From Coriobacteriia bacterium (GTDB taxonomy: Bacteria; Actinomycetota; Coriobacteriia; Anaerosomatales; PHET01): a DNA stretch of 64,000 nt. This document shows positions 19,613 through 30,714 of the stretch, piece by piece. The position numbers and the translations under genes were made by a program. The notes under the pieces are model-generated. The model was not told the origin of the DNA. It saw only the letters and a list, made by a program, of their open reading frames with translations, and made no database searches. The stretch spans positions 1 through 64,000 of the forward strand of contig JAXMKZ010000041.1 in NCBI GenBank assembly GCA_034370385.1, written 5' to 3'. How positions within the stretch are numbered: the stretch's first letter is position 1; every line of letters begins with the position of its first letter.

Positions 19613-20053
19613 CTATGGCTCGGTCGGCGCTTCAGGGGTCGCCGGTACCGCATCTGCGGGTGTGCCGCCCTCAGGAATCCAGACCATGCGACCGTCCTCA
19701 AGACGGTACACGGTGCCGACGGCCTGACCCTCGCCCTGCGCCTGCTGCTCGGTGCGCTTCAGGGTCTTCACCTCGCCATCGTCCTTGATGATGATCTCCA
19801 TCTCCGCGGTGCCGGGGTTCTTCACGATGGTGATGTCCTCGTCGGACAGCAGATCCTGAAGGCCGAAGCTTGAGAGCGCGAAGATCATGAAGCCGACGCC
19901 GATGAGAATCGCCACGTCGAAGAGGTTGCCAGTGGACTCCATCGGATCGCCCGCATCATCGGCGAAGCCGGACCGCGAACGCATGAACGAAGTCTCCTCG
20001 CCTGAGGAGAGGAAGCATGCCGAATCGGGGATGCGCCGCGGGTCCTCGGTCAT
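19613..20053 (-). CDS. DUF2149 protein, copy 1 (ExbD-like partner of TolQ)
   Basis: A 146-aa protein with a short cytoplasmic N-terminus, one membrane helix (about residues 44-65) reading NLFDVAILIGVGFMIFAL, then an extracytoplasmic domain with the DUF2149 segment IVKNPGTAEMEII and VGTVYRLEDGRMVWIPE. The aspartate at the start of the helix sits where ExbD and TolR carry their essential proton-path aspartate, so I infer an ExbD-like role. It overlaps the TolQ-like gene by 4 nt and is the last of three genes. A paralogue lies at 27871-28224. Confidence 0.85.
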   Translation of the reverse strand: MTEDPRRIPDSACFLSSGEETSFMRSRSGFADDAGDPMESTGNLFDVAILIGVGFMIFALSSFGLQDLLSDEDITIVKNPGTAEMEIIIKDDGEVKTLKRTEQQAQGEGQAVGTVYRLEDGRMVWIPEGGTPADAVPATPEAPTEP

Positions 20054-20697
20054 CGCCGCGCTCCCACGTGCTCGAGGACGTACTCAAGGTCCGCAAGATC
20101 CTGCGCGTACATCCGCTCGCGGGCAAGCGCCGTAAGGTACCCGATTGCGCCGATGAGCAGGCCTACGACCGTCGTCGAGAACGCGACGACCAGGTTTGCG
20201 GACAGCGTCTCGGTGTCACCCTTGGCGAGGGCCACGAGGGCGGGGCTGATGGGGATGAGTGTTCCCATCAGGCCGAGTATCGGACCCAGACGGATGAATA
20301 TGCGCGTCTTGTCGAGTCGCCGGATCGCGGTGCGTTCGGCGTCGCCCAGGATCTTCAAGGTTCGAATCCGTGAGAGGCCCTGCGCGATGAGCGAGCGAGC
20401 GGCCGGGCCAACGACGGGGCCGTAGTCGAAATGCCGCAGCGCGTCAGCGGCCTTCTTCGGGTCGCTTGTGGCGCCAGCCTCGGCGAGTTCACCGGCGGCT
20501 CCCTCCACATCGAGCAGCCTGCGGGCGCGGCGGCGGCTGATCGCCTCTACCGTCAGCACTCCCGTGTGAAACGCCACGTACAGCAGCGCCAGCACCTCGA
20601 AGAAGAGCACTGGGTACAACAGCGCGGAGGCCACGGAGTAGATGATGTCTTGTGGTTGCGCGAGGTAGTGCCCGACGCGCCCGAACATGTCACCCAT
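20050..20697 (-). CDS. MotA/TolQ/ExbB-type proton channel, copy 1
   Basis: A 215-aa protein with three membrane helices (about residues 22-46, 135-160, 170-195) and a cytoplasmic domain between the first and second, the ExbB/TolQ layout. The pore segments are ILGLMGTLIPISPALVAL and VVAFSTTVVGLLIGAIGY, with threonines where ExbB lines its channel. It would use the ion gradient to move partners across the membrane. It overlaps the propeller gene by 8 nt and the DUF2149 gene by 4 nt. No TonB gene or outer-membrane receptor is present. Confidence 0.88.
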   Translation of the reverse strand: MGDMFGRVGHYLAQPQDIIYSVASALLYPVLFFEVLALLYVAFHTGVLTVEAISRRRARRLLDVEGAAGELAEAGATSDPKKAADALRHFDYGPVVGPAARSLIAQGLSRIRTLKILGDAERTAIRRLDKTRIFIRLGPILGLMGTLIPISPALVALAKGDTETLSANLVVAFSTTVVGLLIGAIGYLTALARERMYAQDLADLEYVLEHVGARR

Positions 20698-22474
20698 TGA
20701 GACTCCCTAGAACGATACGTCGAATCGGACGAGTTGCGGCTTCGAATGCCGTTCGCGTGATCGGCGAAGAGACACCCATGCCGTAGGCGAACGACAGGAT
20801 GAGTGCGGCGGCAATGAGGCCCGCAGGATCGACGAGCGCCCCGCCACCTCCTCCTGTCGGCTCCTTGCTGAGGGTCTTCTCATCCAGCACGTAGCCTGAG
20901 AGCAGGTCGTTCGCCTCAGCCTCGGTGACGTTGACAGCCACCACCTCGGCGCTCTTCGGTGCTCCGTCACCGATCGAGATGCCGCCGATCCCGGTACCTG
21001 CGCCGGTTCCGGTCCCCAGTGCCACGCCGCCAGTGCCGCCGGTCGAGGATCCCCCTGGGGTCCCGCTGGTTGTGGCGCTAGGAGTCGTGTCCCCGGAGCC
21101 GCTTCCGGGCTTTGGCTTAGGCTTCGGCCGATAGACCGGTGGTTCCGCGAGATAGAACGCCGCATTGAGCTTCTTAATCACAGGTGAGATGCCAAGATCT
21201 TCAGTCGAGAGGTCGACGCGCATTCGCATGAAGCCCGCGGGCCTAGAGTCCTCGATGTAGAAGTCGTCTCCGCTGCCGGCTCGCTGCCATTCGCCACCAT
21301 TGAGCGAGTAGTAGACGCGGGCGGCCGTTCCGTTCGGCAGGTCGATGGAGGGCAGAATCTCGGTGACCCACTTGTTGACGCCGGGGACGCCCAGATCGAG
21401 GTCCCCGGTCTCGTAGGTGCCGCTTGGGACGTAGCCCGTCTCCGTGATCTGACCGCTGTTCGCATCGGCCATGAGTACGCCCTCCGCGGTTGGCCAGATG
21501 CCGCCGTCGGCTCTCACGGATTCGGGGGAGCCGTTCATGCCGCTGCCGTACACGTCGAGCACGTTGCCATGCGCGGCGACCCGAAGGACGCGTCCGTTGC
21601 CGGAGTCTGCGATGAGGGTCGAACCGTCATCCAGTCGTTCCGCCGCTGTCGGCGAGTCCAGATGCGAGGAGCCGGAGCCCTTCTGACCGTCGACCCCGAA
21701 CTGCCAAGCGACTGCGCCTCCACCGGAGCCGACGGCGAGCACCCGGTGTCGCGCCTCGTCGACGATCAGCGTCTCGCCGTTGGCGAGACGTGCGGCGGAG
21801 CGTGGCTGCTGGGCAACCCCCGAGGACCAGACGGGAGTCTTCGCACGCGAGACCTGTACGACGCGGCCGGTGCCCGCGTCCGAAATCAGGATGTCGTTTG
21901 TGCCTGGCACCGGGCGTGCGGACTGGGGCGCGCGAAGAGAGGGGTCGTCGGAAGAGCTGTAGCTCCAGACGACCTGCTTGTCACGACCGACTTCGAGCAC
22001 CTGACGGCCTGCGGAATCCGCGATCACCACGGTGCCGCTGACGCCGGGGAACGCGCTGACGGGACCCTTGAGCGAGGACTCATCTTCATCGCTGAAGCTC
22101 CAGGTGATGCGCCCGGATGCGTCCAGCTCGACGACGCGTCGCCCGGCCTCGTCGGCAATCAACGTGGCTCCTGAAGCGAGCCGGACGACGGAACGCGGTG
22201 TCGCGCCGCCACCCAAGGTGTGGGACCAGATCTCACGCCGAGTGAGGCTGAGCGTGCGAGCGCCCCCGACCCGGGCCTCAGTGAGGTCGGTCCACGTGCC
22301 ACTGAAACGTGGGTTCGGGTTGTAGAAGGTGTAGTTGCGAGGCCCTGCGGCCACCGCGGATGCCGACGTCGGTGCTCCAAGCGACGGAGCGACAATCAGC
22401 GCGCAGAGAACCACCCACATCGCCGTCGTGCAGAGATGGGCTCGGGAGGGTAGTATGTTGTTACCCTTAGTCAT
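20690..22474 (-). CDS. Exported beta-propeller with C-terminal anchor, copy 1
   Basis: A 594-aa protein. It has an N-terminal signal segment (about residues 15-40), then repeated blades of roughly 45 residues carrying variants of RLASGATLIADEAGRRVVEL and LANGETLIVDEARHRVL. A second beta domain follows (YYSLNGGEWQR), then a Pro/Gly/Ser/Thr-rich linker (about 450-510) and a C-terminal membrane helix near 560. The propeller would face outside, anchored at the C-terminus. It is the first gene of the set with the TolQ-like and DUF2149 genes. The start codon has no strong ribosome site. Confidence 0.8.
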   Translation of the reverse strand: MTKGNNILPSRAHLCTTAMWVVLCALIVAPSLGAPTSASAVAAGPRNYTFYNPNPRFSGTWTDLTEARVGGARTLSLTRREIWSHTLGGGATPRSVVRLASGATLIADEAGRRVVELDASGRITWSFSDEDESSLKGPVSAFPGVSGTVVIADSAGRQVLEVGRDKQVVWSYSSSDDPSLRAPQSARPVPGTNDILISDAGTGRVVQVSRAKTPVWSSGVAQQPRSAARLANGETLIVDEARHRVLAVGSGGGAVAWQFGVDGQKGSGSSHLDSPTAAERLDDGSTLIADSGNGRVLRVAAHGNVLDVYGSGMNGSPESVRADGGIWPTAEGVLMADANSGQITETGYVPSGTYETGDLDLGVPGVNKWVTEILPSIDLPNGTAARVYYSLNGGEWQRAGSGDDFYIEDSRPAGFMRMRVDLSTEDLGISPVIKKLNAAFYLAEPPVYRPKPKPKPGSGSGDTTPSATTSGTPGGSSTGGTGGVALGTGTGAGTGIGGISIGDGAPKSAEVVAVNVTEAEANDLLSGYVLDEKTLSKEPTGGGGGALVDPAGLIAAALILSFAYGMGVSSPITRTAFEAATRPIRRIVLGSLNG

Positions 22475-23273: not shown

Positions 23274-24500
23274 ATGCGCCAGGGAATGGGTACCAGATTC
23301 AGCACCAGGGTGGTGGCGGCCTTCGTCTTCGCGATCATGGTCGCCGCGCTCGTGGCGCCGGCAGTCGCAGGGGCGGCTGTGCCGGCACCGACGATCGCGC
23401 TGAGCACTTCGCTTCAGGCGACGGCGAAACCTGTGACGATCAGCGGCTCGATGGGCAAGGCCTACAGGGGCAAGACCGTAACCGTCCAGGTCAGGAAGCC
23501 GGGACGCGCGTACTGGTCTTCGGCGACGTCCAAGGACACTACGCTCAGCTCATTGGGTCGCTACAGTATCCGCTATACGCCGAAGCTGGCCGGCAAGTTC
23601 TATTTCCGCGTTCGTTACAACGCCACGCCGCCCAAGTACTCGCGAACCGTGTCGATGACGGTCAAGAAGGGTCCGAGCACGAAGACCGAGGTCTTCTTGT
23701 CCTCGACGACCTCGACGCGGGACTCCGGCCTGTTCGAGGCCTTGAAGCCGATGTTCCTGAACGACTGCCCCGAGTACACGATCAAAGCGCAGTTCGTCGG
23801 CACGGGCGCGGCAATCGCTCTGGGTGGCACGGGTGACGCGGACGTTCTGCTCACCCACAGCCCTTCGCAAGAGGTCGCATTCATGAATGGCCTCGTTGAC
23901 GGCAAGGCGTCGGCATATCGCGGCAAGTCCCGCTATAAGGTCATGTACAACGACTACGTTCTCGTCGGCCCGACGGCGAACCCCGCGGCCTGCGAGACGA
24001 GTGAGACCGCCACTTCGGCGTTCGGCAAGATCGCAGGCACCTCCTCGACCTTCTGGTCCCGCAACGACAAGTCGGGCACCAACACAAAGGAGAAGGAAAT
24101 CTGGGCGCTGATCGACAGCCCGCAGATCGATGCGGCCGCTTCGACGACCGCCACTACGGTGTTCATGCCGTGGTACAAGGCGTCGGGCACCATGGGCATG
24201 GCCCAGGCGCTCGCTGCATCCAACGACGGCGCTAGTGGCGGGTACACCCTGTCGGACCGCGGCACGTGGCTCAACGCCAAGGCACTCGGCCTGACCAAAA
24301 ACCTCAAGATCGTCAACGAGGGTGACGCCAACTACTTCAACCAGTACAGCGTCATCGAGGTCGGCGGCGCTCGCAACTGGGAGGGTGCGCAGGACTTCAG
24401 CCAGTGGATCCGCACGCCCAAGGCCCAAGAGATCATCCGGACCTACGGTGTCTCCACGTACGGCCAGGCCCTCTTCATCCCGAATCAGGGTTCCTGGTAG
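23274..24500 (+). CDS. tupA: Tungstate-binding protein TupA with N-terminal Ig-like domain
   Basis: A 408-aa exported solute-binding protein. Residues about 1-38 form a signal peptide. About 40-135 form an Ig-like beta domain (VTVQVRKPGRAYW) not found in ordinary TupA. The rest is TupA, with the oxyanion-site segments SSTTSTRDSGLFEALKP and SRNDKSGTNTKEKEIW and the ending YGQALFIPNQGSW. It would capture tungstate for TupBC. The usual TupA length is about 270-290 residues, so the extra domain accounts for the excess. ATG 23274 follows GGAAAGGAG, part of the candidate riboswitch. Confidence 0.92.
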   Translation: MRQGMGTRFSTRVVAAFVFAIMVAALVAPAVAGAAVPAPTIALSTSLQATAKPVTISGSMGKAYRGKTVTVQVRKPGRAYWSSATSKDTTLSSLGRYSIRYTPKLAGKFYFRVRYNATPPKYSRTVSMTVKKGPSTKTEVFLSSTTSTRDSGLFEALKPMFLNDCPEYTIKAQFVGTGAAIALGGTGDADVLLTHSPSQEVAFMNGLVDGKASAYRGKSRYKVMYNDYVLVGPTANPAACETSETATSAFGKIAGTSSTFWSRNDKSGTNTKEKEIWALIDSPQIDAAASTTATTVFMPWYKASGTMGMAQALAASNDGASGGYTLSDRGTWLNAKALGLTKNLKIVNEGDANYFNQYSVIEVGGARNWEGAQDFSQWIRTPKAQEIIRTYGVSTYGQALFIPNQGSW

Positions 24501-24521
24501 TCGCACGCGTCTTCACGGTAC

Positions 24522-24558
24522 GATTCCCCCGGCCGCTGCGGCAACGGCCGGGGGAATC
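24522..24558 (+). terminator. tupA-tupB intercistronic hairpin
   Basis: A perfect 14-bp stem (GATTCCCCCGGCCG at 24522-24535 pairs with 24545-24558) lies between tupA and tupB. It may be a leaky terminator or an mRNA-stabilising stem giving more TupA than TupBC. Confidence 0.65.
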
Positions 24559-24585
24559 TGACCCGCCCAAGCGATCGGAAGACGC

Positions 24586-25290
24586 ATGAACGTGTACGCA
24601 ACGGCGATCGCCGATGCTTTCTCGCTACTGACCAACGGCAACCAGACCGTGTGGGAGGTCATTCGCCTCTCGCTGATCGTTTCGGGCTCCGCTGTGGCGC
24701 TCGCGGCGCTGATTGGCATCCCTTTGGGATACGCGCTGGGCATGAGTCGGCATGCGGGTCGGGGAATCATCGTGCTTCTGGTGAACACCGCCATGGGGTT
24801 CCCGCCGGTCGTGATCGGCCTGTTCGTCTACATCGCACTCTCGCGATCGGGCCCTCTGGGCCCCTTGAATCTCCTGTTCACCCCGCTGGGCATGATCATC
24901 GCCCAGGTCATTCTCGCCACACCCCTGATCCTGGGGGTCACGGCGGCGGCCGTTTCCGGTGTCTCGCGAGACCTGCGTTTGCAGCTGCGGGCGCTCGGAG
25001 CGTCCCGCCTCCAGGAGGGTGCCGCCATCCTCCGTGAGGCACGCGGAGGCGTGATGGTCTCGATCGTGGCCGGCTTCGGCGCCATCATCTCGGAGGTCGG
25101 CGCCGTCTCGATCGTCGGCGGAGGCATCGAGGGGTACACCGACGTCATGACAACGGCGATCATGGCGAACGTGCGCCGGGGCGAGAACTCTCAGGCGATG
25201 GCCTGGGCCATGGTGCTCATGGGTATCGCGCTCATGGTCAACATAGTGCTTACGAGCGTACAGAGCACGAGCACGAAGCACGGAGCATGA
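24586..25290 (+). CDS. tupB: Tungstate ABC transporter permease TupB
   Basis: A 234-aa permease with about five or six membrane helices and the BPD_transp EAA loop in the form LRALGASRLQEGAAILREAR, which docks on the ATPase. Family-typical SGSAVALAALIGIPLGYALG and GAIISEVGAVSIVGGGIEG flank it. It takes tungstate from TupA. It overlaps tupC by 4 nt (ATGA). Confidence 0.94.
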   Translation: MNVYATAIADAFSLLTNGNQTVWEVIRLSLIVSGSAVALAALIGIPLGYALGMSRHAGRGIIVLLVNTAMGFPPVVIGLFVYIALSRSGPLGPLNLLFTPLGMIIAQVILATPLILGVTAAAVSGVSRDLRLQLRALGASRLQEGAAILREARGGVMVSIVAGFGAIISEVGAVSIVGGGIEGYTDVMTTAIMANVRRGENSQAMAWAMVLMGIALMVNIVLTSVQSTSTKHGA

Positions 25291-26396
25291 CGATGGGTGC
25301 CGATCACGTTCGTTCCGCGACCGCGGTTTCGGCGCGCGGACTCACCGTCACGTACGCGGGCCGCACCGTCCTCGATGTCGACCACATCGAACTCGCTCCC
25401 TCTGAAACCTACGTGCTGCTGGGTTCGTCGGGCGCGGGCAAGTCGACTCTTCTTCGAGTTCTCGGACTGCTCGAGGAGCCAACCAGCGGTCAGGTCCTCT
25501 ATGGCGGCGAGCAAGTGGCCAGGGCCGATCTGGCCGCACGTCGCCGCATCGCCGCGGTCTTTCAGAAGCCGCACCTGCTCAGGGGCACGGTGGGCGACAA
25601 CGTTGCGTATGGGCTCAAGCTTCGCGGCGTGCCGCGTACGGAACGCGCGGAGCGCGTGGCGGCGTCGCTTGAGACCGTCGGACTGGGAGGCTGGGAGAAG
25701 CGGCCTGCGCTGACGTTGTCCGGCGGGGAAGCACAGCGAGTCGCCCTGGCCCGCGCGATCGTGCTGCGACCCAATCTACTGCTGCTGGACGAGCCGCTGT
25801 CGTACCTGGACCCGGTACTCAAGCGCGACCTCACCGACCAGTTCGCGGCAATCCTGTCGTCCGAGGACGTCACGGCGCTGTATGTCACGCACGATCAGGA
25901 CGAGGCTGCCGTTGTTGCGGACCGGATCGGTGTCATGCGTGACGGCCGCATCGTCGCCGAGGGGGCGCCCGATGAGGTGCTCGCACTTCCCTGCGATGAC
26001 TGGGTGGCGGCTTTCGTCGGCACGGAGCCGCCGGTGGTCGGTCGGGTCACGACGTACGCCAACGGAGTTGCGACGCTCACGTGTGGAAGCGGTGAAGTCT
26101 TTGCGGTCACGGATCTCCTTACCGATACCGAGGTCGTGTTCGGCGTGCGCCCCGAGGACGTCATGCTGTTCGAAGACGGCGTCGAGATCCCGCTCAGCTC
26201 AGCCCGCAATCAGCTCGCTTGCACCGTCGTGCGCGTCATCCCTCAGGGGGCGGCGGTTCGCGTCGTGCTCGACGCGGGCTGCTTCCGCCTCGCCTCGAGC
26301 ATCAGCCACGGGTCTGCGAAGGCCTTGGGCGTAGAGCCCGGCGCCCGACTCACGGCCGTATTCAAGGCGACCGCGGTGCGCGTTGCGACCCGGTAG
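25287..26396 (+). CDS. tupC: Tungstate ABC transporter ATPase TupC with TOBE domain
   Basis: A 369-aa ATPase with Walker A GSSGAGKST, Q-loop AVFQKPHLL, signature LSGGEAQRVALARA, Walker B LLLLDEPLSYLDP and the switch histidine in YVTHDQDEA. The C-terminal 130 residues form a TOBE/OB regulatory domain (VVGRVTTYANGVATL, VRPEDVMLFED) that in ModC-type ATPases binds the oxyanion and inhibits transport. The gene converges on the nifQ-like gene, whose end is 8 nt away. Confidence 0.94.
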   Translation: MTMGADHVRSATAVSARGLTVTYAGRTVLDVDHIELAPSETYVLLGSSGAGKSTLLRVLGLLEEPTSGQVLYGGEQVARADLAARRRIAAVFQKPHLLRGTVGDNVAYGLKLRGVPRTERAERVAASLETVGLGGWEKRPALTLSGGEAQRVALARAIVLRPNLLLLDEPLSYLDPVLKRDLTDQFAAILSSEDVTALYVTHDQDEAAVVADRIGVMRDGRIVAEGAPDEVLALPCDDWVAAFVGTEPPVVGRVTTYANGVATLTCGSGEVFAVTDLLTDTEVVFGVRPEDVMLFEDGVEIPLSSARNQLACTVVRVIPQGAAVRVVLDAGCFRLASSISHGSAKALGVEPGARLTAVFKATAVRVATR

Positions 26397-26404
26397 ACCG
26401 AGCC

Positions 26405-26761
26405 TCACTCTTCGCTTCCGAAGCACTCCTCGTAGCCGTCACACCCGGTGCAGCTTGGGTTGCGTCAAGTGCTGAACCCGCTCCAACCGCACAGCCGTTT
26501 GTAGAGGAACTTCTTCCAGCGCATGTCCTTGGTGTTGGCCTCGTAGAGGGTCGGGAAGCTCTCGCGCATCATCGCTCGAAGCTCGTCCCGACCGGAGAGG
26601 CCCATCGAACGCCACAGGTGCCCGGGCTGCAGCGCCGAGCGCGCTATCCAGTCGGCGCGGTCTCGCGTGTCTGGGTCATCTCCTGCGTCAGCCATGAGCA
26701 GCAAGACGAGTTGTTCGTACTCGTCTTGCCTTTGCGGGGGAATGGGGTGTCGGTCAGCCAT
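26405..26761 (-). CDS. nifQ: NifQ-like protein with an in-frame TGA at the first motif cysteine (candidate selenoprotein)
   Basis: Reading from ATG 26761, the frame runs 98 codons to TGA (26465-26467) and then stays open for 19 more codons to a second TGA at 26405-26407, 118 residues in all. The first part is clearly NifQ: GHLWRSMGLSGRDELRAMM, then MRWKKFLYKRLC. NifQ ends in a metal-binding motif C-X4-C-X2-C-X5-C. Here it reads (TGA)-RNPS-C-TG-C-DGYEE-C-FG, so the TGA replaces exactly the first cysteine and the other three remain. Decoding as selenocysteine is the simplest explanation, supported by a hairpin just after the TGA. A one-base nonsense mutation is the alternative. No nif genes are present; a Mo/W-handling role fits the neighbours. 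The start has no clear ribosome site. Confidence 0.8.
26434..26455 (-). promoter_or_regulatory. Candidate bacterial SECIS hairpin
   Basis: In the transcript the stem TGCAC/GTGTG (26452-26448 with 26444-26440, two wobble pairs) closes the loop CGG, 17 nt after the in-frame TGA. An outer AGC/GCT pairing (26455-26453, 26436-26434) extends it past a 3-nt bulge. The spacing and the G among the first two loop bases fit the published bacterial SECIS pattern. Confidence 0.5.
26701..26729. repeat. Perfect inverted repeat inside the nifQ-like gene
   Basis: GCAAGACGAG at 26701-26710 is repeated in reverse complement at 26720-26729 around a 9-nt loop, early in the coding frame. It can form a strong mRNA stem about 30 nt after the start codon. 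Confidence 0.6.
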
Positions 26762-26773
26762 CGAGGGATGTAA

Positions 26774-26811
26774 CAGCGACCGGCCTCGTTGGCTTGCGTG
26801 GCCGGTCGCTG
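26774..26811 (-). terminator. Hairpin after the Mop gene
   Basis: A perfect 12-bp stem (CAGCGACCGGCC at 26774-26785 pairs with 26800-26811) lies between the mop stop and the nifQ-like start. It probably ends the long minus-strand operon, or limits read-through into the nifQ-like gene. Confidence 0.65.
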
Positions 26812-26828: not shown

Positions 26829-27035
26829 TTAGTCGACGCCGAGGATGACGTGGTCGGCCTTGATGATGGCCACGGCCTCGCTGCCGACGGTGAGGCCCAG
26901 ATCCCTGACCGCATCCATCGTGACCACGGCTGTGATCCGCTGCCCTGTCACGTCTAGAACGACCTGTGCTTCGACGGCGCCTTCCTTGATCTCTGAAACG
27001 ACACCGCGAATCTGGTTACGAGCTGAAAGCTTCAT
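26829..27035 (-). CDS. mop: Mop-domain molybdate/tungstate-binding protein (molbindin)
   Basis: A 68-aa protein, the full length of a single Mop/TOBE domain. It starts at ATG 27035 after GGAAGGAG. MKLSARNQIRGVV and GAVEAQVVLDV match the molbindin signature. Such proteins assemble as hexamers that store or buffer molybdate or tungstate in the cytoplasm. It is the last gene of the minus-strand cluster, next to the tungstate importer and the nifQ-like gene, consistent with Mo/W homeostasis. Confidence 0.93.
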   Translation of the reverse strand: MKLSARNQIRGVVSEIKEGAVEAQVVLDVTGQRITAVVTMDAVRDLGLTVGSEAVAIIKADHVILGVD

Positions 27036-27106: not shown

Positions 27107-27859
27107 TCACTCAGGGGCGCTCCCGGGTTTCTCTTGTCCGGGCGCCTCCGAAGGCTGTTTGCCGATAGCGAGCCACCGATTCTCGCTCGCGAACATCACG
27201 GGAACGGCAGGGCGCCCGCCCCACAGGCGCGGACGGAGCCAGTCAGCCGTCTCCACGATGTCGCCGAGCTTCGGCGATACGACGTTGCGGTCCACCGGGA
27301 GCACGAGCATGCCGGCCGCCTCAAGCTCGCCGACCGTCACCTCGGCTGGATGATCGCGCAGCCGGCCGAACTCCACGAACCGGCCGGACCAGCCCCACGC
27401 GGTCAGGCCCACGCCCGCAGCCGCGCCGATGATCCCGTCGTTCGTACCGCCGTGGCCGGAAAGGTGGGCACCGGATGCTGCTGCGATCGCGTCGGCTTGC
27501 GTCACGACTGAGACGGCAGCGCGTCGGCCGAACTCCGTGAGCACGGGGATCGCCGGGTTATCCTCGAGCGCGACGCACACGCCCGGGTCGCTTCCTTCGA
27601 GGGCGTGAAGCTCCACGTGGGCAATGGCGCGGGTGATGAGCTCTTCGACGATGGCGGCATCAGGCACCTCGACGACGGCGCATGCCGAACTGTTGTGCGA
27701 GGTGTACGGGATGTCCGGGTGCACCAACAGCTGCTGGCGGACGACGCCCCACAGCTTGCACCCATCGGGTAGCTCGTCCTCGTACCAGCGCACGAGCTTG
27801 CCGGTGCCACGTGGTGCGCCGAGATTGTCAGTGTCATCGAAGCATACGAATGCGCGCAT
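27107..27859 (-). CDS. TiaS-like protein (FDDTDN motif)
   Basis: A 250-aa protein starting MRAFVCFDDTDNLGAPRG. The DDTD motif near the N-terminus resembles that of tRNA-Ile2 agmatinylcytidine synthetase TiaS, an archaeal enzyme, and GHGGTNDGIIGAAAGVGL is the second shared glycine-rich region. The zinc-ribbon and OB parts of full TiaS are missing, so tRNA-Ile lysidinylation is unlikely to be its job. It lies 12 nt after the DUF2149 gene in the same cluster. Substrate and reaction are unknown. Confidence 0.65.
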   Translation of the reverse strand: MRAFVCFDDTDNLGAPRGTGKLVRWYEDELPDGCKLWGVVRQQLLVHPDIPYTSHNSSACAVVEVPDAAIVEELITRAIAHVELHALEGSDPGVCVALEDNPAIPVLTEFGRRAAVSVVTQADAIAAASGAHLSGHGGTNDGIIGAAAGVGLTAWGWSGRFVEFGRLRDHPAEVTVGELEAAGMLVLPVDRNVVSPKLGDIVETADWLRPRLWGGRPAVPVMFASENRWLAIGKQPSEAPGQEKPGSAPE

Positions 27860-27870
27860 AGCGGACTCCC

Positions 27871-28224
27871 TTATTGTCCCGGTACCCAGACGGTGCGACC
27901 GTCCTCGAGTTGGTAGACCGTGCCTACAGGTGTACCCATGCCCTCCGCCGGCTGGTCGGTGACCTTCAGGCGCTCGATCTCCTTGCCCTCCTTGCGGATG
28001 ACCTCCATGTCAGGCGTTCCGGGGTTCTTCACGATGGTCATCTCGTCGGCAGAGAGGATCTCTTGCAGCCCGAAGCTCGACAGGGCCACGACCATGAAGC
28101 CCACGCCGATCAGGATCGCCACGTCGAACAGGTTTCCCATCGCGTCCATCGGGTCTCCGTGACCGTCCCCTGAGCGTCTGCGTCGGCGGCTGAGGAAACT
28201 GGTGTCTGCACCGGTGCTGCGCAT
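27871..28224 (-). CDS. DUF2149 protein, copy 2
   Basis: A 117-aa paralogue of the protein at 19613-20053. It keeps the helix NLFDVAILIGVGFMVVAL with the ExbD-like aspartate, then IVKNPGTPDMEVI and VGTVYQLEDGRTVWVPG. A basic RRRRR stretch precedes the helix, consistent with a cytoplasmic N-terminus. It starts 1 nt before the end of the TolQ-like gene's coding block and is the third gene of the propeller-TolQ-DUF2149 unit. Confidence 0.85.
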   Translation of the reverse strand: MRSTGADTSFLSRRRRRSGDGHGDPMDAMGNLFDVAILIGVGFMVVALSSFGLQEILSADEMTIVKNPGTPDMEVIRKEGKEIERLKVTDQPAEGMGTPVGTVYQLEDGRTVWVPGQ

Positions 28225-28225
28225 G

Positions 28226-28870
28226 TCACCCTCCCAAGTGGTCGAACACGTACTCGATGTCGGTGAGGTCCTGCTGGTGATGACGATCCCGTACCGCCGT
28301 GACGATGTAGCCGATGGATCCGATGAGCAGACCCACGACGGTGGTGGAGAAGGCGATCACGAGGTTGTCCGAAAGCTGCTGAACGTCGCCGCTGGCCAGA
28401 GCCACGAGCGCCGGGCTGATCGGGATGAGCGTACCCATGAGGCCGAGTATCGGGCCCACGCGCATGAGCATTCGTGTGCGCTCGAGGACCCTGACCGACT
28501 CGAGGTCCGCATCGGCCAGCGCCTTCAGAACGTGCGAGCGCGTGACCGTCGACTGATGCTCCAGCGAACTCGCGACCGTCCGAGCGATCGGGCTTGGCCC
28601 CATCGAGCCCAAAAACCCGAGCGCAGCGGTTCGCTTGTCGGTGCCCGTCGCCTGGGCCACGGCCACCGCGGCGGCTTCGACGTCGAGCTTCTTGCGCGCC
28701 CTCCGGCGTTTGAACACCTCCACGCAGAATCGACCCGCTTCATACGCGGCGACGAGCAGCGCGAACACTTCAAGGAATAGGACCGGGTAGAGGAGTGCTG
28801 TCGCGACCCCGTAGATGATCGCCTCAGGGTGCGTCAGGTAGTAGCCAAGCTTCTCGCCCAAACCCGTCAT
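28226..28870 (-). CDS. MotA/TolQ/ExbB-type proton channel, copy 2
   Basis: A 214-aa paralogue of the channel at 20050-20697. The three-helix layout and pore segments are nearly identical (GPILGLMGTLIPISPALVAL, NLVIAFSTTVVGLLIGSIGY), whereas the cytoplasmic domain between helix 1 and 2 has diverged. It overlaps the propeller stop by 4 nt. The strong conservation of the pore against a diverged cytoplasmic part suggests both copies are functional but serve different partners. Confidence 0.88.
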   Translation of the reverse strand: MTGLGEKLGYYLTHPEAIIYGVATALLYPVLFLEVFALLVAAYEAGRFCVEVFKRRRARKKLDVEAAAVAVAQATGTDKRTAALGFLGSMGPSPIARTVASSLEHQSTVTRSHVLKALADADLESVRVLERTRMLMRVGPILGLMGTLIPISPALVALASGDVQQLSDNLVIAFSTTVVGLLIGSIGYIVTAVRDRHHQQDLTDIEYVFDHLGG

Positions 28871-30714
28871 CTCAACTCCCTCAGTGTCAGCGCTGACAGC
28901 GCTATCCGGAAGACCCGTCTGGGCGTCCCCGACGCTGCAGCGGTAGCGCCAATCGTATACGCGAGCGCAACCAACGCCAATGCGACGCTGATGGTCAGCT
29001 GCTGATTCGAGGTCGGGCCTCCGCCGGGTGTGCCGTCGCCGGCTTCGTTACCGATTGGGGTCAGCAGGTTGCCAGCGGCGTACTGGGGACCCGTGAGCAC
29101 GGCCGGACCTTCGGCGGCGAACTGGTCCGACGTGGCGGCAGGCGCGGTCGCAACAGCCGCATCGTACGGAGCGCCGAAGGTCATCGGGCCGCCGCTGAAG
29201 CTGCTGCCTGAGCCCGTGCCAGAGCCCGCGCCCGTGCTTGAACCTGAGCCGCTGCCGGAACCAGAGCCCGAACCCGAACCCGAACCGCCGCCGGAACCGG
29301 TACCGTCACCCGGGTCAGGGCCGGTGGCCGGAGCGGGGGAGGCGGAGAACTGCACCTGGGTGACCGACGGCGTTGAGCCCTGGTCTGTCGTCGAGAGCCG
29401 AACTCGGTACCGGATGAGTCTGCCGATGCTGTTCTTCGACAGGCTGCTGGCCGCCCGCCACGCCCCGCCATCGAGCGAGTACTCGAGCCGCGCTGAGGTT
29501 CCGGCCGGCTGGTCCGCGGCCAGCGAGCCCGACGGCACGACCTTGCGCACCCCAGGGAGTCCGAGGTCGAGCGATGGCGAAGTGAACGTGCCGCTCGTCG
29601 GGTAGCCGACTTCGATGATTCGCTTGGTGCCCTGATCGGCGAGCAGATACGAGCCGGAGGCGGTGCGCTGCACCGAGCGCACCTTCGAAGTGAGCGAGGC
29701 GTCAGCGACACCGGGAATAGGGATCGTGCTGACGATCTCGCCTGCGGCGTCGACCTCGATGATTCGTCCGACGCCGTCTTCTTCGACAATCACCGTGTTG
29801 CCGTTTGGCAAGCGAACCGCGTCGGAGGGCTTCGGCTGGCTGTCGCCGGTGCCTTCGAACACGTACTGCCACACAACTGCGCCACTCGGAGTGACTTCGA
29901 TGACCCGGTTGCCTGCGTACGCCTGATCCGCCGCGTCGACTATCAACGTATTGCCGTTGGCGAGTCTGGATGCCTTACGTGGCGAGGACAGCATGCCCGG
30001 CCCCGTGCCCGGATCGTTGTCGCGGCCATACTGCCACACGATGCTCGATCGGGTGAAGCCGTACGCCGGCGCATCGGCGTCGTAATCGGAGGTCCGGACC
30101 TCGATGACCCGCGTTGAGAACCGGTTGTCGCAGATCAGCGTGTTGCCATTCGCCAGTCGTGTCGCTGAGTAGGGGTCGACGACCGAGCCAGGTGCGAGTG
30201 AGTCGATCTGGGCGCCGTACTGCCAGACGACCCGCTTGTCGGGCGCCACCTCCAGCACGAGGTCCGCTCGTCGATCCAGTATCAGCGTATTGCCGTTCGG
30301 CAACCGCTGTGCCGAATACGGGTTCAGCAACCGCGGGTCGTCGGCTTTGGAGTAGGACCAGGCGATGCGCTTCGAACGAGTCACTTCGGTGACCGCCACG
30401 TTGTAGCGGTCTGCGATCAGTATGTTGCCGTTGCCGAGCACCTCTGCGGAGAATGGTTCCATCATCAGGACGCCCGGTCGCGTGTACTCCCAGAGCACAC
30501 GGCGTTGCAGCTGCACACGCGGTACACCGGCAACTGTCGTCACCTCAACGCCGCTCGCGGTCCCCGCGAACGGAGTCGAGCCGGTGGTCGCGCGCCACGT
30601 GGTTGCCCCAGCGCTCAGTGGCCGAGTGACGCTGATCCCTGCGACGAGCAGCAGCGCGAGCACGAAGTAGAGGGTCGGTGTCGCCTTGATTCGAGTTGTG
30701 GCCATTCGCCTCAT
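28867..30714 (-). CDS. Exported beta-propeller with C-terminal anchor, copy 2
   Basis: A 615-aa protein: signal segment (about residues 14-37), then about six blades marked by the recurring RLANGNTLI(V/C)D or RLPNGNTLILD and by VVWQYG strands, an Ig-like domain with LEYSLDGGAWRAAS, a long Gly-Ser linker (about 475-515) and a C-terminal membrane helix near 585. Domain order matches the copy at 20690-22474, though blade sequences differ. ATG 30714 overlaps the stop of the ECF-like gene. Ligand unknown; the propeller would lie outside the membrane next to the TolQ-like channel. Confidence 0.8.
   Translation of the reverse strand: MRRMATTRIKATPTLYFVLALLLVAGISVTRPLSAGATTWRATTGSTPFAGTASGVEVTTVAGVPRVQLQRRVLWEYTRPGVLMMEPFSAEVLGNGNILIADRYNVAVTEVTRSKRIAWSYSKADDPRLLNPYSAQRLPNGNTLILDRRADLVLEVAPDKRVVWQYGAQIDSLAPGSVVDPYSATRLANGNTLICDNRFSTRVIEVRTSDYDADAPAYGFTRSSIVWQYGRDNDPGTGPGMLSSPRKASRLANGNTLIVDAADQAYAGNRVIEVTPSGAVVWQYVFEGTGDSQPKPSDAVRLPNGNTVIVEEDGVGRIIEVDAAGEIVSTIPIPGVADASLTSKVRSVQRTASGSYLLADQGTKRIIEVGYPTSGTFTSPSLDLGLPGVRKVVPSGSLAADQPAGTSARLEYSLDGGAWRAASSLSKNSIGRLIRYRVRLSTTDQGSTPSVTQVQFSASPAPATGPDPGDGTGSGGGSGSGSGSGSGSGSGSSTGAGSGTGSGSSFSGGPMTFGAPYDAAVATAPAATSDQFAAEGPAVLTGPQYAAGNLLTPIGNEAGDGTPGGGPTSNQQLTISVALALVALAYTIGATAAASGTPRRVFRIALSALTLRELR

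Follow-up and report, generated by a model that had tools for sequence, protein, structure and literature searches.

A candidate selenocysteine-containing form of the metal carrier NifQ in the Coriobacteriia

The nifQ-like gene on the minus strand of the 64,000-nucleotide stretch of DNA analysed here (the window) contains an in-frame TGA at 26465..26467, which raises the question of whether translation ends at this codon, ahead of the metal motif, or continues through it with insertion of selenocysteine (Sec). A preliminary description, made from sequence alone, had proposed that the frame crosses the TGA and runs on for 19 codons, that the TGA falls exactly on the first cysteine of the C-X4-C-X2-C-X5-C motif of NifQ, that a hairpin with a CGG loop starts 12 nt after it, and that UGA is read as Sec, giving a Sec ligand to a Mo- or W-carrying cluster. 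It had also named three findings that would refute the proposal: a genome without Sec machinery, close homologues that truly end at the TGA, or sequencing reads with TGC or TGT at this codon. We consider it very likely (probability about 0.93) that the gene encodes a Sec-containing NifQ, with Sec likely at a Mo/W site; Sec insertion in the cell, ligation, carriage of Mo or W and the acceptor of the metal are inferred.

The nifQ reading frame

The gene spans 26405..26761 and comprises 118 codons when read through the TGA, followed by a second TGA as the stop. Translation of the minus strand from 26761 to 26405 gives MADRH...WKKFLYKRLCGWSGFST-U-RNPS-C-TG-C-DGYEE-C-FGSEE-stop, in which the predicted Sec, residue 99 (26467-26465), occupies the first position of U-X4-C-X2-C-X5-C and is followed by 19 codons before the second TGA (26407-26405). 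The other motif cysteines are Cys104 (26450..26452), placed by translation and invariant in 52 aligned sequences, and Cys107 (26441..26443) and Cys113 (26423..26425), placed by translation and alignment; the spacing of the NifQ motif is exact, with Sec replacing its first cysteine. The Pfam NifQ profile (PF04891) matched residues 7-115 of the read-through product over profile positions 50-159 of 159 (E 3.7e-37; 128.7 bits against a curated cut-off of 27), and the match crosses the TGA to reach the last position of the model. The first two proposals, concerning the extension of the frame and the exact placement of the TGA, were thus upheld by translation, Pfam and alignment. To them the alignment adds a fifth invariant cysteine, Cys91 (26489..26491), which lies outside the metal motif; the invariant residues include five cysteines and His48.

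This is the single NifQ of the window genome, whose 2.69-Mb assembly has a rated completeness of 100%. Upstream of the ATG at 26761 a Shine-Dalgarno-like sequence was not evident. Structure prediction was poor across the cysteine motif (pLDDT about 57-61), a Foldseek search of the predicted structure against the PDB returned no match, and no solved structure of a NifQ relative was found by sequence search.

Conservation of the TGA and of the frame beyond it

NifQ was searched for across the class (398 genomes) and the order (69 genomes), and was found in 8 genomes of the order. The motif codon is TGA in five of these eight, which represent five families (the window genome together with G115, G127, G129 and G135), and each of the five genes has exactly one stop inside its Pfam match, a TGA at that same codon. 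The remaining three genomes (G022, G087 and G095) belong to one family and hold four nifQ copies, all with TGC in this column. TGA/Cys pairs within the lineage, for which the preliminary description had recommended looking, are therefore present as five TGA and four TGC sequences; its suggestion that close homologues might end at the TGA is not borne out, since five families keep both the TGA and a conserved downstream frame.

Across the 52 aligned sequences the first motif column is invariably Cys or TGA. Cys occupies it in all 43 relatives outside the order's five TGA and four TGC sequences, and is likewise the residue in NifQ proteins from Pseudomonadota, a Desulfuromonas and further classes of this phylum. 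Beyond the order, Sec-NifQ was not detected: apart from the window genome, only Cys forms turned up in 396 genomes sampled phylum-wide and in 36 from a second class, and a scan of named genomes found no TGA at the motif among 46 NifQ loci from other bacteria, where the motif was readable. In a tree of 57 rows the five Sec proteins form one clade (support 98/93), whose sister is the Cys family; all rows outside this clade carry Cys. The Sec clade of NifQ has a single origin, and the simplest reading inferred from the tree is a single early Cys-to-Sec change in the order, kept across deep divergence.

These comparisons bear on the possibility that a TGC or TGT was misread as TGA through sequencing or assembly error. 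While the Sec genomes all appear to be draft assemblies, the same TGA is found in separate ones (record prefixes CAKMKD for G115, JAHIQC for G135 and JACRBU for G127). Because independent assemblies carry the same TGA, a single-base error is not credible and this explanation is all but excluded; the refuting case of reads with TGC or TGT is opposed by the same observation.

Coding constraint was compared in the five Sec genes over 18-codon regions before the TGA, after the TGA and after the second stop. Amino-acid identity was 0.76, 0.65 and 0.06 in the three regions, respectively, and pN/pS was 0.32, 0.49 and 0.95; the second stops (TGA, TAG, TAG, TAA and TGA) lie at an almost constant distance of 18-19 codons. 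The frame past the TGA is under protein-level selection. Such constraint would not persist downstream of a genuine terminator. The alternative is an ordinary stop, in which case NifQ would lack its metal motif or the gene would be a decaying pseudogene with an alignable remnant. Standard gene callers would end the gene at the TGA, and the window genome has no nitrogenase, so that relaxation is conceivable. Against this stand the occurrence of TGA at one codon in five families, the downstream constraint, the absence of any further stop or frameshift in any copy, and the position of one Sec copy (G115) at the head of a nif cluster. We regard an ordinary stop as very unlikely.

A SECIS-like hairpin and the selenocysteine machinery

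The best hairpin of the window gene is a SECIS-like stem-loop at 26434..26455 on the minus strand (nt 10-31 after the UGA), with an 8-bp stem, one bulge and the loop CGGGU (26447-26443, nt 18-22 after the TGA), in which G is second. The proposed CGG-loop hairpin starting 12 nt after the TGA was thus confirmed in part. By itself this hairpin is not significant (p about 0.15-0.23). When nt 9-39 after the UGA were folded and compared with random synonymous recodings, the combined Stouffer z for the excess in stability was -3.7 for the Sec genes versus +0.3 for the Cys genes. With the test slid over 83 positions, the Sec genes reached their minimum at the UGA (z -4.2 at offset -1 and -3.8 at offset 0), and no signal was seen for the Cys genes at the corresponding position. 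A bSECIS-type constraint (apical loop of 3-8 nt, starting 16-25 nt after the UGA, with a G among the first two positions) gave a combined p of 5e-4 for the Sec genes versus 0.30 for the Cys genes; the hairpin loop starts 18-22 nt after the UGA in all five Sec genes, with a G among the first two loop positions. When 60-63 nt were folded without constraints no signal appeared, and the synonymous-codon null was required. The SECIS-like signal is therefore significant for the five Sec genes jointly and not for the window gene alone.

The window genome encodes tRNA-Sec (anticodon UCA), selA, selB and selD within about 6 kb of contig C11. All four genes of the Sec pathway (selA, selB, selC and selD) were thus found, and the first of the refuting cases, a genome without Sec machinery, fails. 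The selD gene has an in-frame TGA at its own Sec position (KAG-U-AAK). This gene (locus L009, about 15442-14321, minus strand, on contig C11 of the window genome, G000) is a selenoprotein gene too, and an ORF caller working from ATG or GTG to stop cuts it short, downstream of the Sec TGA.

Among the other Sec genomes, G127 and G135 have tRNA-Sec, SelA and SelB, and G127 also has an FdhA with TGA. SelB and an FdhA with TGA are present in G129, without tRNA-Sec and SelA, in an assembly of 520 contigs; a candidate tRNA-Sec from this genome was rejected because it proved to be tRNA-Ser. tRNA-Sec, SelA and SelB were not detected in G115 (86% complete), and SelB was found in four of four congeners. 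For the Cys genomes, none of tRNA-Sec, SelA and SelB was detected in G022 (99% complete; locus L013), and G087 and G095 carry Cys-NifQ although the Sec machinery is present. G022 is a diazotroph of the same order that keeps the Cys form.

A further alternative is that UGA has been reassigned genome-wide (e.g. to Trp or Cys), without Sec. No evidence supporting this was found; of 39 gene-like ORFs examined across the window and the sel locus, 17 terminate at TGA, and a tRNA-Sec with anticodon UCA is present together with SelA and SelB. Reassignment is all but excluded. The reading of UGA as Sec is strongly supported by comparison, through the families, the downstream constraint, the hairpins of the group and the machinery. 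By inference, Sec incorporation is almost certain; there are no protein, 75Se or read-level data, and biochemical proof is lacking.

Genomic setting and proposed metal role

Directly upstream of nifQ, on the minus strand, lies mop (26829..27035), encoding a molbindin with a TOBE domain (TIGR00638, E 2.9e-21; PF03459). Convergent with nifQ are the three plus-strand genes (23274..26396) of a Tup-type tungstate/molybdate ABC transporter, which encode a binding protein, a permease and an ATPase with a TOBE domain; the NCBIfam matches (TupA, E 7.8e-38; TupB, E 2.9e-44; WtpC, E 3e-70) all fall below curated cut-offs.

Several further features of the neighbourhood were observed. Between mop and nifQ, at 26776-26809, there is a perfect 10-bp inverted repeat (GCGACCGGCC...GGCCGGTCGC), where none is expected by chance, and no clear U-tract follows it on the nifQ strand. 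Adjoining mop, 27107-27859 on the minus strand encodes a 250-aa protein (MRAFVCFDDTDNLGAPRGTGK...) without a Pfam or NCBIfam match. The Tup-nifQ locus is flanked on both sides by paralogous three-gene blocks (19613-22474 and 27871-30714), whose genes are DUF2149-like, ExbB/MotA-like and for an NHL/PQQ-like repeat protein.

The window genome, for all its rated completeness of 100%, has no NifH proper, no NifDK and no NifEN, and no match to formate dehydrogenase at E <= 1e-60. Nitrogenase-family genes are found in G115, G135 and the Cys genomes, and in G127 they are limited to a pair of PF00148 domains at the edge of a contig. Downstream of Sec-nifQ in G115 come nifH, nifD, nifK, a fused nifEN, a nifX-like gene, P-II, a NifB-like gene and modABC. 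G129 has NifQ and no nitrogenase-family genes. The occurrence of NifQ without nitrogenase genes in the window genome and in G129 hints at a role outside nitrogenase.

In the mechanism that we propose, SelB and tRNA-Sec(UCA) would insert Sec at the UGA at 26467-26465 under the direction of the hairpin that closely follows it, and the product of 118 residues would carry U-X4-C-X2-C-X5-C at the C-terminus. Given the homology to Azotobacter NifQ, Sec would stand in for one thiolate at the metal site and may tune how Mo (or W) is taken up, retained or released, with the metal passing from the transporter and molbindin to NifQ and then to an acceptor. In Azotobacter the Fe-S cluster of NifQ takes up Mo to become [Mo-Fe3-S4], and the protein serves as Mo donor for FeMo-co (PMC11605450); FdhA offers a case of direct coordination of Mo or W by Sec (PMC13188914). 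On the strength of these precedents, the likeliest arrangement is one in which Sec supplies one of the ligands at the metal site of NifQ. That Sec ligates a Mo-Fe-S cluster, as the preliminary description had claimed, is an inference by analogy that we rate as no more than plausible: the ligand set is open given Cys91 and His48, and the structure model is unreliable at the motif.

It is possible that Sec is present and is not a cluster ligand, acting instead as a redox or metal-exchange residue that reduces or docks molybdate or passes Mo on, while the remaining cysteines, perhaps with Cys91 or His48, hold the cluster. Five invariant cysteines and His48 exceed the need of a four-ligand cluster, and a redox function is assumed for many selenoproteins of bacteria (PMC13188914). 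However, the replaced residue belongs to a compact C-terminal four-cysteine motif that is invariant across relatives, and the FdhA precedent is one of direct binding of Mo or W by Sec (PMC13188914). Our preferred reading remains a Sec-NifQ with Sec likely at the Mo/W site. A bolder version would make Sec-NifQ of the window organism a selenium-tuned carrier of Mo or W outside nitrogen fixation, delivering metal from the Tup transporter and molbindin to a non-nitrogenase enzyme via a Se-ligated metal-Fe-S cluster; we judge it less likely than not.

NifQ is absent from an inventory dated 2026 that covers 119 families of prokaryotic selenoproteins, FdhA, SelD, MoeB and a nitrogenase alpha subunit among them (PMC13188914), and NifQ was not found together with selenocysteine or selenoprotein in the open-access literature searched; preprints and supplements were outside this scope, and a mention in a groundwater MAG selenoprotein survey is not excluded. 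Both results agree with the preliminary description, to which no described selenocysteine NifQ was known. NifQ thus appears to be an undescribed selenoprotein, a known metal carrier in a new, Sec-containing form, for which support by comparison is very strong and biochemical proof is lacking. It would add a family to the inventory and place selenium at the Mo-delivery step of nitrogenase cofactor assembly. Sister lineages with naturally occurring Sec or Cys forms let one ask which NifQ residue handles Mo and by what means, and NifQ in a nitrogenase-free genome raises the possibility of a wider role with Mo or W. Sec nifQ genes are likely annotated as truncated before the metal motif.

Among known selenoproteins, one listed member of the nitrogenase superfamily, nitrogenase component I subunit alpha (TIGR01862, WP_153802866.1; PMC13188914 Table 1), is unrelated to NifQ as a protein and is annotated in GenBank only. 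SelD of the window genome shares with nifQ a UGA-encoded Sec and a hairpin loop 18 nt after the UGA, but it is a selenophosphate synthetase, unrelated to NifQ. Sec-containing FdhA likewise has a UGA-encoded Sec, one that coordinates Mo or W, and, within this order, a hairpin placed similarly relative to the UGA; it too is unrelated, binding molybdopterin and oxidising formate, whereas NifQ is a metal carrier. Compared with NifQ itself (PF04891, e.g. of Azotobacter vinelandii), the window protein differs in having Sec at the first cysteine of the motif, a short N-terminus and a genome without nitrogenase genes, while it shares the domain, the C-X4-C-X2-C-X5-C spacing, an invariant N-X3-MRWKK, Cys91 and, in its relatives, location in a nif cluster.
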